Source: Terriglobales bacterium (GTDB taxonomy: Bacteria > Acidobacteriota > Terriglobia > Terriglobales > Acidobacteriaceae). Taken from it: a DNA stretch of 64,000 nt. The notes below the pieces were generated by a model. That model was not told where the DNA came from, searched no databases, and saw only the letters and a list, made by a program, of their open reading frames with translations. Location of the stretch: assembly GCA_025936825.1 (NCBI GenBank), contig JAICSO010000013.1, forward strand, positions 1-64,000, given 5' to 3'. Both the position numbers and the translations under genes were made by a program. Shown here one piece after another: positions 53,034-58,011 of this stretch (its first letter is position 1; each line of letters opens with the position of its first letter).

Positions 53034-53488
53034 TACTAGAATCCCTCAACCATAATACCGCCGCGTCGAGTCAGGGCAGGGGACGTCGAACACCGGGCGG
53101 AGGCTATCGCATTGGGCTCTGGGCCACGAAGAACATGCTGGAAAAGCGACGCTGCAAATCGTCGTACGCAGTAAAGAAGCCTGACGGGCAGCGTCATGAG
53201 CTTGGCATTCCCACTACCCGTGGTTGCCGGCACGGCTTGACTCCACGAACGGTCCCATGCTCATCTAATGCTTCCGGTGTCCCCATATCGGATCACGAGC
53301 TATTTTAAGGACTGCTATTTCTTCTATAGGACGCGAGCGCGAGCAAGGGATCTCTGTGAATACAGGAAATTCTGTATTTTTCCGAGTTGACCTTTGCGTC
53401 AGTATGTAGTTGCAGGATTCTCTGTATGTCGCGCCGAACTGCGTTTAGTCTTGAGTTCCGGTGCGGAAAGCAATATCGGAGGTGCGTA
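53034..53488. other. 455-bp spacer, no supported gene
   Basis: No frame on either strand looks coding. It lies upstream of both the LuxR-type regulator and the MEDS sensor gene and is the likely place for their promoters, which I could not define. Confidence 0.5.
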
Positions 53489-54139
53489 ATGGTCAATGGC
53501 GAACAGCCTATTCATTTTGCCAATGCGACGCTCGGAACCCAGCGTCACATTTGCGCTTTTTTTCACTCTCCGGATGAAGAATACCGCACATTGCTTCCGT
53601 TCATTCGCGAAGGCCTCGAACGCGGGGAAAAGGCATTTCATATAGTTGATCCCCAATTGATGGAAGACCATTTTCACCGCCTACAAGATGCAGGAATTGA
53701 AACCGAGAAGGCGCGCGAGCGGGGGCAGTTGGTGGTGAAGCGCTGGCAAGATGCGTATTTGCGCGATGGCCATTTTGACCAGGACCGTATGTTGGCACTG
53801 ATCGAAGAAGTACTCACCGCGGGCCCGAAGGAGGGTTACGCGTTAACTCGGCTCGTCGCCCACATGGAATGGGCGTTGGAAGATTTTCCGGGCGTCAACG
53901 ATCTGGTGGAATATGAAACGCGCCTGAATTTCGTGCTACCGAAGTACAAAGATCCCGTCATATGAACCTATGACTGCGCCAAGTTTGGCGCCGGGATTGC
54001 AATGGATATTCTCAGGACCCACCCGATGGTGATCCTTGGGGGCGTGCTGCAGAGGAACCCATTCTTCGTACCACCGGCGGAGTTCCTCGCCGAACTCCGC
54101 GAACGTGGCGCATATGGGTCGCGCTCGACAGTAGCATAG
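53489..54139 (+). CDS. MEDS-domain sensor with an in-frame TGA at the conserved Cys (candidate selenoprotein)
   Basis: ATG 53489 has GGAGGT upstream at good spacing. The frame shows the MEDS (DcmR sensory) domain: HICAFFHSPDEEY at the start, then FIREGLERGEKAFHIVDP and EYETRLNFVLPKYKDPVI. There it meets TGA at 53963-53965. Reading on in the same frame gives TYDCAKFGAGIAMDILRTHP, then MVILGGVLQRNPFFVPPAEF and LAELRERG, which is the normal end of the domain, to TAG at 54137. Family members usually read VICTYD at this point, so the TGA replaces the conserved Cys. With read-through the product is 216 residues and stops five bases before the kinase gene. Termination at TGA would give 158 residues. 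The domain is thought to sense small carbon compounds through conserved His and Cys. Confidence 0.75.
53976..53991 (+). promoter_or_regulatory. SECIS-like hairpin after the TGA of the MEDS gene
   Basis: GCGCCA at 53976-53981 pairs perfectly with TGGCGC at 53986-53991 around the loop AGTT. The loop starts 16 bases after the TGA and has G in second position. This meets the general bacterial SECIS pattern (short stem, small loop, G in the first two bases, 16-37 bases from UGA). Confidence 0.55.
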
Positions 54140-54144
54140 ACAAC

Positions 54145-57100
54145 ATGAATAAGGCTCACAACGAGAACCGGGACCTCCGGCGCCTGCTCCGCGATCTGGT
54201 GGCTTTAGCCACGACACCTGCTGCCTGGGTGGGGCGCGCCCCGGCGCAGATCGCGGAGAGCGTCGCCGATCTCCTTTTGCACACCTTGCGGGCTGATGCT
54301 GTATACATCTGCCTGCGATCGCAAAACTCGATCGAAGTCGTCCGCGACGGGCAGCGCCCTGGGTTTGCCGAGGAGGCTAGAACACTATTATCGAACTCTG
54401 TGCCTGGGAGCCTTTACGTTGACACGATTACCAGTCCTAAGTGGCCAATCTCGCTCAAGGTAGCCGTCCAGCCAATAGGTATTTCAGGCGAAGATGGATT
54501 CATTGTTATCGGTTGCGCGGATGCTGAGTTCCCGAGCGAAGCCGAAAATTTACTTTTATCAGTAGGAGCAAACCAAGCCGCAGTAGCGCTCCGGGCGGCC
54601 CGGTTGCGCGCGGAAGCAGATTCGGAGCGCAATCGTCTTCGCGACTTGCTGGCCCAGGCGCCCGCTGCGATGGGACTGCTGATGGGGCCCGAGCACCGGT
54701 GGACCTACGTCAACGATGAATATGTACGCCTGACTGGTAGGAACGATCCCGATGATTTTCTTGGTAAGAGCGTTGTCGAAAGCTTGCCGGAGATCCGCAC
54801 GCAGGGCTTCATCGAACTGCTCGACGAAGTTTATCGGACGGGAAAACCATTTTTCGGGCGTGAGATGAAAACCAATCTGGAGCGCTCGGCCAGAGGGCTT
54901 TCAAATGAGTCATATTGGGACTTCGTCTACCAGCCGGTCCGCGACGCCGTCGGTCACGTGGACGGCATTCTTGTTCACGCGGTGGAAGTCACTGATCGCG
55001 TGTTAGCCCGAAAAAACATTGAAGAAAGCGAAAGGAAGTATCGGGATCTTGCAGAAAGCGCCACTATTGCTCTTCACTGGGTGGGCGCGGATGGGACGAT
55101 TTTGTGGGCCAACAAAGCAGAACTAGAGATGCTCGCCTATACAGCAGAGGAGTACATTGGTCACAAAATCACGGAATTCCATCTCGATTCTCCCGTGATT
55201 AACGACATTCTAAACCGGCTGTGTCGGGGCGAGAAGCTTCGCGAATACCAAGCGAGGCTGCAAGCGAAGGACGGCTCGATACGGCACGTCATCATCGATT
55301 CGAGCGTCCTATTCGAAAATGGCAAGTTCATTCACACGCGGTGCTTCACTCGCGACATCACCGAACGCAAGCTGGCAGAGCAGCGTCTTCAGCAAAGCGA
55401 GGCCCGTTTCCGTGCAATCGTGGAGACTACACCAGAGTGCGTGAAACTGGTCGCGCGCGACGGCACACTCCTGCACATGAATTCCGCCGGCTTGTCCATG
55501 GTGGAGGCCGAGCGTGCTGAAATGGTGGTCGGAAAGAGTGTCTACGATCTAATTGCACCCGAGGACTGCCTGCGCTTTCGTGAATTCAATGAGCGCATCT
55601 GCCAGGGCGAGCGGGGCTCATTAGAGTTTGACCTCCTTGGACTCAAAGGCACGCGCCGGCATATGGAAACGCATGCGGCTCCGCTCCAGAATCCAGATGA
55701 ATCGCTCGTGCAGCTCGCCGTCACCCGCGACGTCACTGAACGTAAGAACGCTGAGATGGCGTTGAGAGAGAGCGAACAGAAGCTTCGGGTGGTTACGGAC
55801 GCTACGCCCGTCATGATTTGGATGTCGGGAACAGACAAGCTTTGCTACTACTTCAACAAGAGCTGGCTCGACTTTGTGGGACGCGCTCTCGAACAGGAAA
55901 TGGGGAATGGCTGGGCCGAAAACGTCCATCCCGACGACTTTGATCGCTGCTTACAGATTTACGTGTCCAGCTTTGATGCTCGGCAACCGTTCGAGATGGA
56001 ATATCGCCTCCGCCATCACACTGGCGAGTATCGCTGGATTTTGGATCACGGAGTACCACGTCATGGTCCAGATGGAACCTTCGAAGGCTACGTCGGAGGT
56101 TGTCTCGACATTCACGATCAGAAGGAGGCGTCTCAGGCCCGCAGCCGTCTCGCCGCCATTGTGGAATCTTCGGACGAGGCGATTATCAGCAAAGACCTGA
56201 ACGGACTTGTCACGAGTTGGAACCGGCAGGCTGAGCGCTTGTTTGGCTATACAGAACAGGAAATGATTGGCCGCTCAATTCTGACAATTATCCCCCCTGA
56301 ACTTCACCGTGATGAAGACATGATTCTGAGTAAGATCAGGAACGGCGAAAAGATTGATCATTTTGAAACTGTGCGAGTCGCGAAATCAGGCGAAAGAATC
56401 GAGGTCTCAATCTCGATCTCTCCGGTTCGCGATGAGAATGGGCGAGTGGTCGGCGCAGCGAAGATTGCTCGCGACATTCGAGAGAGTAAGAAGATTGAGA
56501 GGACACTCAGGACCACTGAGAAACTGGCTGCGGCTGGCCGCTTGGCAGCAACGGTCGCACACGAAATCAATAACCCTCTCGAAGCCGTGGCGAACCTGGT
56601 TTACCTCGCTAAGCGAGACGTTCGGGATGCAGAGAAGGTGGCTTCCTACTTGAACAGCGCCAAGCAGGAATTGAACCGCGTGGCGCACATCACACGGCAA
56701 ACGCTCGGTTTTTATCGGGACACATCGTCGCCGGTTCGATTCAATGTTGCTAGCACGCTGGATGATGTTTTGGGGTTGTATGAGCGACGATTCGAAACTC
56801 GAAACATCAGAGTGGTCAAGCAGTACGACGACGATGCTGAGATAGTTGCACTGGCTGGCGAGATTCGGCAAGCTTTTTCTAACTTGCTGACCAACGCGCT
56901 GGACGCGATGCCCTCGGCTGGAACGTTATCGTTAAGAATTCACAAAAGCCACAAATGGGATAACGCTCATGCTCCAGGGGTCAGAATCGTTATTGCTGAC
57001 TCCGGCAGTGGCATCTCACCGGAACACAAGCAGAACTTGTTTCAGCCATTCTTCACTACCAAGGCCGATGTGGGTACGGGACTGGGACTTTGGATTACTC

Positions 57101-57264
57101 GTGGCATCATCGAAAAACATGGCGGGTCGATTCGCGCCAGGAGCAGGACGGGACAAAAACATGGAACTACTTTCTCCATGTTTCTTCCCGGCGTCCCAAA
57201 ACATAGTCGGGAGCAAGCGCAACTGGGAACACAGCCAGAACACGAGCTGGTGGCCGGAGATTAG
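54145..57264 (+). CDS. multi-PAS sensor histidine kinase
   Basis: A 1039-residue soluble kinase. A GAF-like region covers residues of about 10-165. Five PAS domains follow, starting near 170 (LLAQAPAAMGLLMGPEHRWT), 295 (YRDLAESATIALHWVGADG), 420 (FRAIVETTPECVKLVARDG), 550 (LRVVTDATPVMIWMSGTD) and 675 (LAAIVESSDEAIISKDLNG). The phosphorylated His is in AATVAHEINNPLEAV near residue 810. The ATPase boxes are NLLTNALDAMPSAG, DSGSGIS and TGLGLWI. There is no membrane segment, so it senses cytoplasmic signals. It starts five bases after the read-through end of the MEDS gene and is followed three bases later by a receiver gene. Confidence 0.92.
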   Translation: MNKAHNENRDLRRLLRDLVALATTPAAWVGRAPAQIAESVADLLLHTLRADAVYICLRSQNSIEVVRDGQRPGFAEEARTLLSNSVPGSLYVDTITSPKWPISLKVAVQPIGISGEDGFIVIGCADAEFPSEAENLLLSVGANQAAVALRAARLRAEADSERNRLRDLLAQAPAAMGLLMGPEHRWTYVNDEYVRLTGRNDPDDFLGKSVVESLPEIRTQGFIELLDEVYRTGKPFFGREMKTNLERSARGLSNESYWDFVYQPVRDAVGHVDGILVHAVEVTDRVLARKNIEESERKYRDLAESATIALHWVGADGTILWANKAELEMLAYTAEEYIGHKITEFHLDSPVINDILNRLCRGEKLREYQARLQAKDGSIRHVIIDSSVLFENGKFIHTRCFTRDITERKLAEQRLQQSEARFRAIVETTPECVKLVARDGTLLHMNSAGLSMVEAERAEMVVGKSVYDLIAPEDCLRFREFNERICQGERGSLEFDLLGLKGTRRHMETHAAPLQNPDESLVQLAVTRDVTERKNAEMALRESEQKLRVVTDATPVMIWMSGTDKLCYYFNKSWLDFVGRALEQEMGNGWAENVHPDDFDRCLQIYVSSFDARQPFEMEYRLRHHTGEYRWILDHGVPRHGPDGTFEGYVGGCLDIHDQKEASQARSRLAAIVESSDEAIISKDLNGLVTSWNRQAERLFGYTEQEMIGRSILTIIPPELHRDEDMILSKIRNGEKIDHFETVRVAKSGERIEVSISISPVRDENGRVVGAAKIARDIRESKKIERTLRTTEKLAAAGRLAATVAHEINNPLEAVANLVYLAKRDVRDAEKVASYLNSAKQELNRVAHITRQTLGFYRDTSSPVRFNVASTLDDVLGLYERRFETRNIRVVKQYDDDAEIVALAGEIRQAFSNLLTNALDAMPSAGTLSLRIHKSHKWDNAHAPGVRIVIADSGSGISPEHKQNLFQPFFTTKADVGTGLGLWITRGIIEKHGGSIRARSRTGQKHGTTFSMFLPGVPKHSREQAQLGTQPEHELVAGD

Positions 57265-57267
57265 AAC

Positions 57268-57630
57268 TTGAAGATCATCGTCGTGGATGATGAGCCAGTA
57301 ATCGCGGATACTTTAGTCAATATTTTGAACGGCGAAGGATACAACGCAATTTCCACGTCCAACGGAAGATCAGCGATCGAGTGGTCGGAGAAATTTCAAC
57401 CGGATGTAGTTGTTAGTGACGTGATTATGCCCGGCCTGAGCGGGGTCGATACGGCAAAAGCGATTTTGAAGCAGCTTCCGAATTGTCGGATTATTCTTTT
57501 CTCCGGCCAAGCTGCTAGTGTGGACCTGGTAGCGCGAGCCAGAGAAGAAGGTTACTCGTTTGAAGTACTCGCCAAACCAGTTGATCCCGACGTACTACTG
57601 AACAAAATCAGCGGCCCCGAAGGCGCGTAG
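57268..57630 (+). CDS. stand-alone response regulator receiver 1
   Basis: A 120-residue receiver starting at TTG 57268, three bases after the kinase stop. The acidic pair is in VVDDEPVIADT, the phospho-acceptor Asp in VVSDVIMPGLSG, and the Lys in VLAKPVDPD. There is no output domain, so it acts through protein contacts or as a phosphate shuttle. It is likely the direct partner of the PAS kinase. Confidence 0.88.
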   Translation: MKIIVVDDEPVIADTLVNILNGEGYNAISTSNGRSAIEWSEKFQPDVVVSDVIMPGLSGVDTAKAILKQLPNCRIILFSGQAASVDLVARAREEGYSFEVLAKPVDPDVLLNKISGPEGA

Positions 57631-57648: not shown

Positions 57649-58011
57649 ATGCGTTGTCTTGTTATCGATGATGAGAAGTTTGTAGCCGATAGCCTCGCGA
57701 TGATCCTAGAGGGAGATGGTCACGAAGCTGTGGCCGTGTACGACGGCAGCTCAGCGCTCGAAAAAATCAAATCTTTCACTCCCGACTGCGTGATCTCGGA
57801 TGTGATCATGCCGGGGTTGAACGGAATCGAAGTGTGCTCAGCAATCGGAGAGCAATTTCCTAACTGTCAGATCTTGCTTTTCTCCGGGCAAGCGTCAACG
57901 AGCGAACTCATCGACGAAGCCCGCGGTCAGGGTCATTTGTGGGAGCTTTTGCCGAAACCGATCGATCCAGAAGAATTGCTGGCAAAAGTCACGTCTCTTG
58001 GTGCCAAGTAG
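57649..58011 (+). CDS. stand-alone response regulator receiver 2
   Basis: A 120-residue paralogue of the preceding gene (shared IILFSGQA / ILLFSGQA and KPxDP parts). The acceptor Asp is in CVISDVIMPGLNG and the Lys in LLPKPIDPE. The spacing of 18 bases suggests the same transcript. Tandem single-domain receivers could divide the kinase's output or form a phosphate sink. Confidence 0.88.
   Translation: MRCLVIDDEKFVADSLAMILEGDGHEAVAVYDGSSALEKIKSFTPDCVISDVIMPGLNGIEVCSAIGEQFPNCQILLFSGQASTSELIDEARGQGHLWELLPKPIDPEELLAKVTSLGAK

Follow-up and report, generated by a model that had tools for sequence, protein, structure and literature searches.

The MEDS gene and its neighbours

On the forward strand of the window (the whole stretch of 64 000 nucleotides that was analysed), an open reading frame starts with the ATG at 53489, 6 nt after a Shine-Dalgarno-like GGAGG that was read directly at 53478–53482. 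The frame meets a TGA at codon 159 (53963–53965), continues for 57 codons and ends at a TAG (54137–54139). With the TGA read, the gene occupies 53489–54139 and its product has 216 residues; this is the single internal TGA and the frame is otherwise open. The Pfam MEDS model (PF14417) matched residues 19–179 of this product over its full length (profile positions 1–161, E = 2e-40), with a score of 138.7 bits against a gathering cut-off of 29.8. An Rfam scan of the window gave no family match.

The MEDS gene is followed on the same strand by genes for a PAS-rich sensor histidine kinase of 1039 amino acids (54145–57264; Pfam PAS, HisKA and HATPase_c) and two response regulator receiver domain proteins (57268–57630, Response_reg E = 6.5e-23, and 57649–58011, E = 7e-22). 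Reading through the TGA moves the end of the MEDS gene from 179 nt to 5 nt before the kinase start, as a preliminary description of this DNA had stated, and all of the coordinates in that description were reproduced. No obvious Shine-Dalgarno sequence precedes the kinase start at 54145. The order of MEDS gene and then kinase gene was kept in most relatives, and the tight spacing recurred in relatives with the TGA and was also kept in those with Cys. Flanking genes in the relatives gave no clear clue to a ligand beyond kinases and receivers. The N-terminal 185 residues of the kinase (54145–54700) had no Pfam family match; similar sequence opens the partner proteins at the majority of MEDS loci, and one of these partners (L044) has a sigma54-type AAA output.

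TGA replaces a conserved cysteine codon

Relatives were collected by scanning genome contigs and by searching for MEDS in 396 genomes from the Acidobacteriota and 95 from the Rokubacterial phylum, and ∼80 distinct MEDS genes were aligned at the codon 159 column. This column contained TGC in 44 genes, TGT in 19 and TGA in 20 (one repeat removed), with no other codon. The preliminary description had placed the TGA at a conserved cysteine position and proposed a search for UGA/Cys pairs; such pairs were found, every aligned relative that lacked the TGA having a cysteine codon. Besides the window gene, 19 TGA-type genes were identified in 16 other Acidobacteriota, Rokubacteria and related metagenome-assembled genomes (MAGs). 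The 20 genes are distributed over 17 genomes, mostly MAGs (the window genome, G042, G339, G355, G396 to G407 and G502), with three copies in G405 and two in G502. No second in-frame stop was detected in any of them between codons −140 and +44. Judged from this alignment, the recurrence of TGA at one column is more than chance would produce.

All the TGA genes fell within one well-supported MEDS subclade (97/98), alongside 18 Cys genes, and the tree indicated approximately five changes of state within it, which makes repeated exchange between Sec and Cys probable. The second TGA-type copy from G502 (L183, G502:C69) appears frameshifted on both sides of the TGA, and looks like a decaying paralogue or an assembly error; it was included in the count of 20 and was given little weight.

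The frame downstream of the TGA is constrained

Comparison of the window gene with an 86%-identical relative (L030) over codons +1 to +47 identified 18 synonymous changes and one nonsynonymous change, a dN/dS of ∼0.01. The codon of His178 (54020–54022), also beyond the TGA, specifies a residue that was invariant in 34 MEDS sequences. On these comparisons the frame after the TGA is under strong purifying selection, which, together with the full-length Pfam match, agrees with the intact, family-like C-terminus originally described. Decay of the downstream frame in close relatives, which had been named as an outcome that would refute a selenocysteine, was not seen.

A fused arrangement was observed in the Rokubacterium genome G405 (L181, 3654–5540 on the reverse strand, G405:C120), where a single ORF encodes MEDS with the in-frame TGA, a GAF-like region and a NarL-type kinase (HisKA_3, HATPase_c). 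This ORF runs for ∼455 codons past the TGA; without read-through, no kinase could therefore be produced from its start. The three TGA-type MEDS genes of G405 occur alongside Cys-type ones.

A SECIS-type hairpin is conserved at codon level

The perfect 6 bp hairpin with an AGTT loop that had been noted 16 bases past the TGA is present at 53976–53991 (GCGCCA-AGTT-TGGCGC, loop at 53982–53985). A published model of the bacterial SECIS element has a loop of 3–9 nt, a G at loop position 1 or 2, a spacing of 16–37 nt and an energy of −7.5 or lower (PMC13188914). The window hairpin agrees with this model in every respect, with a spacing of 16 nt from the TGA to the loop, the 4 nt loop AGUU with G in second place and −9.5 kcal/mol. 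When the window gene was resampled synonymously, a hairpin as stable was obtained in 755 of 20 000 sequences. The window hairpin is thus only mildly unusual, and a hairpin in a single gene is weak evidence alone.

The weight is carried by conservation of the hairpin codons across relatives, which is, as far as the aligned genes go, strong evidence. GUU was found at nt 18–20 after the TGA in all 20 TGA genes, and was located in the loop of a SECIS-type hairpin in the TGA-gene types that were folded. In the main group of 17 genes, from which two divergent types (L117 and L162) were set aside, there are 21 columns near the TGA with an invariant residue that is open to several codons. The codon itself was invariant at only four of these, +5 to +8 (GCC AAG TTT GGC), which are the hairpin itself. 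Of the divergent types, L117 has the GUU as the loop of a shifted stem; in L162 the stem that carries it contains a single bulged U. Covariation in the hairpin measured with RNAalifold was small, too little to help, because the hairpin hardly varies.

Such a hairpin was absent from the Cys relatives, with one exception. The Cys-type gene L055 (3001–3625) has kept an AGUU hairpin in the equivalent position, and there is a frame break upstream; this hairpin looks like the relic of a recent replacement of Sec by Cys.

Selenocysteine machinery

The preliminary description had called for a search of the genome for selA, selB, selC and selD, and all except selB were found. The window genome contains selA (552 bits), a tRNA-Sec (selC) with a UCA anticodon and a Sec-type selD (L120:1893–3101, reverse strand, G000:C14), which has its own in-frame TGA within the known Sec motif GUASKL. 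selA was present in 17/17 genomes with TGA-type MEDS genes, compared with 25/37 genomes with only Cys-type MEDS genes (Fisher P = 0.011).

selB was not found in the draft assembly; a model of the SelB C-terminal domain gave no match there and matched in all nine of the other genomes tested. The best SelB-model match (C15:52547), which was first taken as SelB, is EF-Tu, and the other matches are LepA and TypA. In two relatives selB adjoins purL and purF, and in one of these prmC is also there. All four genes are missing from the window-genome assembly (G000), which is 99.67% complete. As selB is missing together with purL, purF and prmC, the loss of one contig block appears the likeliest cause, and since these absent neighbours are normally essential a gap in the assembly is likely.

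Predicted structure and conserved residues

The structure predicted for the MEDS protein was confident (pLDDT 88.8). The best Foldseek matches were FlaH (4yds, E = 2e-6) and KaiC (4tlc), with a TM score of ∼0.55, indicating a KaiC/RecA-like fold, in agreement with the published interpretation of MEDS as a KaiC domain that has lost its activity (PMC5847659). No Walker A P-loop (GxxxxGK[ST]) was found after the first core strand (residues 20–25), which is followed by HSPDEEY. A search of PDB sequences with the MEDS profile gave nothing significant. His20, Cys22, Glu143, Cys/Sec159 and His178 were invariant across the 34 aligned MEDS proteins. In the predicted structure residue 159 is on strand 157–162 and Cys22 on strand 20–25; the H-x-C pair of His20 and Cys22 (codons at 53546–53554) are likely partners of Sec159.

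Discussion

The pairing of UGA with Cys, the coding continuity, the conserved hairpin and the machinery (selB excepted) argue that the gene at 53489–54139 very probably encodes, in this soil bacterium, a stand-alone MEDS sensor protein with selenocysteine at codon 159. From the same sequence comparisons, the approximately twenty MEDS genes in two phyla are almost certainly selenocysteine-encoding and would represent a new family of selenoproteins with a role in cell signalling. UGA codon 159 would be decoded by way of the adjacent SECIS hairpin, tRNA-Sec, SelA and SelD, with SelB presumed.

Within the inactive KaiC-like fold Sec159 falls on a strand, and it may be the reactive residue of the sensor, acting with the invariant Cys22, His20, Glu143 and His178. 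It could serve as a nucleophile with which small electrophiles react, or as a redox switch of the selenenylsulfide type (Sec159–Cys22). The modified MEDS state would alter the activity of the neighbouring kinase, whose gene begins 5 nt further on, and the kinase would in turn signal through the two receiver proteins. The ligands known for MEDS, dichloromethane and ethylene or its epoxide, were described for distant members or deduced in the literature. Of these compounds the epoxide and the haloalkane can alkylate thiolates, and Sec is more nucleophilic than Cys. The selenol should change the chemistry of the sensor, as the preliminary description had supposed. As a mechanism of sensing, a reactive Sec159 that works with Cys22 to drive the adjacent kinase is our best guess, a tentative one with chances slightly below even.

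Decoding as selenocysteine might be genuine and yet have a mainly regulatory role, only those ribosomes that read through the TGA reaching the kinase start, so that kinase output reports selenium status. The short distance from the read-through stop to a kinase gene with no obvious Shine-Dalgarno sequence, the tight spacing in TGA relatives and the fused MEDS–kinase form are consistent with this suggestion. However, Cys relatives have equally tight spacing, so selenium is not needed for the coupling, and a column that is otherwise always Cys points to the chemistry of the residue; a chiefly regulatory role is therefore rather unlikely. A combination of the two, a selenium-gated two-component system in which Sec is the chemical trigger and, through read-through coupled or fused to the kinase, also the switch for kinase synthesis when selenium is available, would be similarly speculative. 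It is equally doubtful that Sec159 is mainly a metal ligand, with His20, Cys22, Glu143 and His178, in a sensor of metals or metalloids. The invariant set of H-x-C, E, C/U and H would suit such a site, but there was no match to a metal-binding family, and the neighbourhoods of the loci contained no recognisable metal-resistance genes.

Were the TGA a normal termination codon, or the result of a nonsense mutation, the gene would encode a MEDS protein of 158 residues or be a decaying pseudogene. A single substitution converts TGC or TGT to TGA, and the assembly yielded no selB. Against this stand the same TGA column in 20 genes from two phyla with no further stops, the low dN/dS and the invariant His178 downstream, the ∼455 codons that follow the TGA in the fused kinase ORF and a selD that likewise has a Sec TGA, and termination at codon 159 is accordingly very improbable. 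Insertion of another residue, by near-cognate read-through or reassignment to Trp, is less credible still: the sequence demands read-through and the inserted residue is deduced from it, but the column is otherwise always Cys, the gene has a SECIS-type hairpin and the genome has Sec machinery, and reassignment of the code was ruled out as TGA serves as an ordinary terminal stop in these organisms, ending 6 of 13 further window ORFs that were checked and many of the TGA-bearing MEDS genes themselves.

Selenocysteine at codon 159, the reading preferred here, would add the MEDS family to the prokaryotic selenoproteome and bring selenocysteine into two-component signalling. The MEDS family was reportedly named in 2005; across the family, the residue at codon 159 now stands out as the one that is probably reactive, which makes the sensing chemistry directly testable. 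Annotation pipelines are likely to truncate TGA-type MEDS genes at this codon and, where MEDS and kinase are fused, to split off the kinase.

Comparison with known systems

The 119 prokaryotic selenoprotein families in a catalogue published in 2026 are overwhelmingly enzymes, redox proteins and transport proteins; the catalogue has no MEDS entry and no two-component sensor, and nowhere does it refer to sensors or histidine kinases (PMC13188914). There is likewise no MEDS selenoprotein in the 2025 deep-Sep set and no model for one in NCBIfam (June 2026), and no paper on MEDS or DcmR as a selenoprotein was found among open-licence full texts. The earlier remark, which placed MEDS outside the established selenoprotein families, is thus borne out by the 2026 catalogue and NCBIfam. 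A predicted selenoprotein of the FmdB family from the GOS metagenome shares a putative regulatory label (PMC2398784), but it belongs to another family, has a CxxU motif and is not a kinase-linked sensor. The RsbA anti-sigma factor family (NF041045) has an N-terminal MEDS-like region in common with the window protein, which has no kinase-type ATPase domain and scored 48.5 bits, far under the cut-off of 210 for membership.

With established bacterial selenoproteins (FdhA, SelD and thioredoxin-like families) the MEDS genes share the UGA and a downstream SECIS-type hairpin, Cys homologues and the Sec machinery. With other MEDS proteins (PF14417; DcmR, EtnR2 and methanogen histidine kinases) the window protein shares the conserved Cys column, the link to histidine kinases and the inactive KaiC-like fold. 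It differs from them in that UGA, probably read as Sec, replaces the Cys codon, in that it stands alone before a separate kinase and in its clade-specific SECIS-type hairpin.
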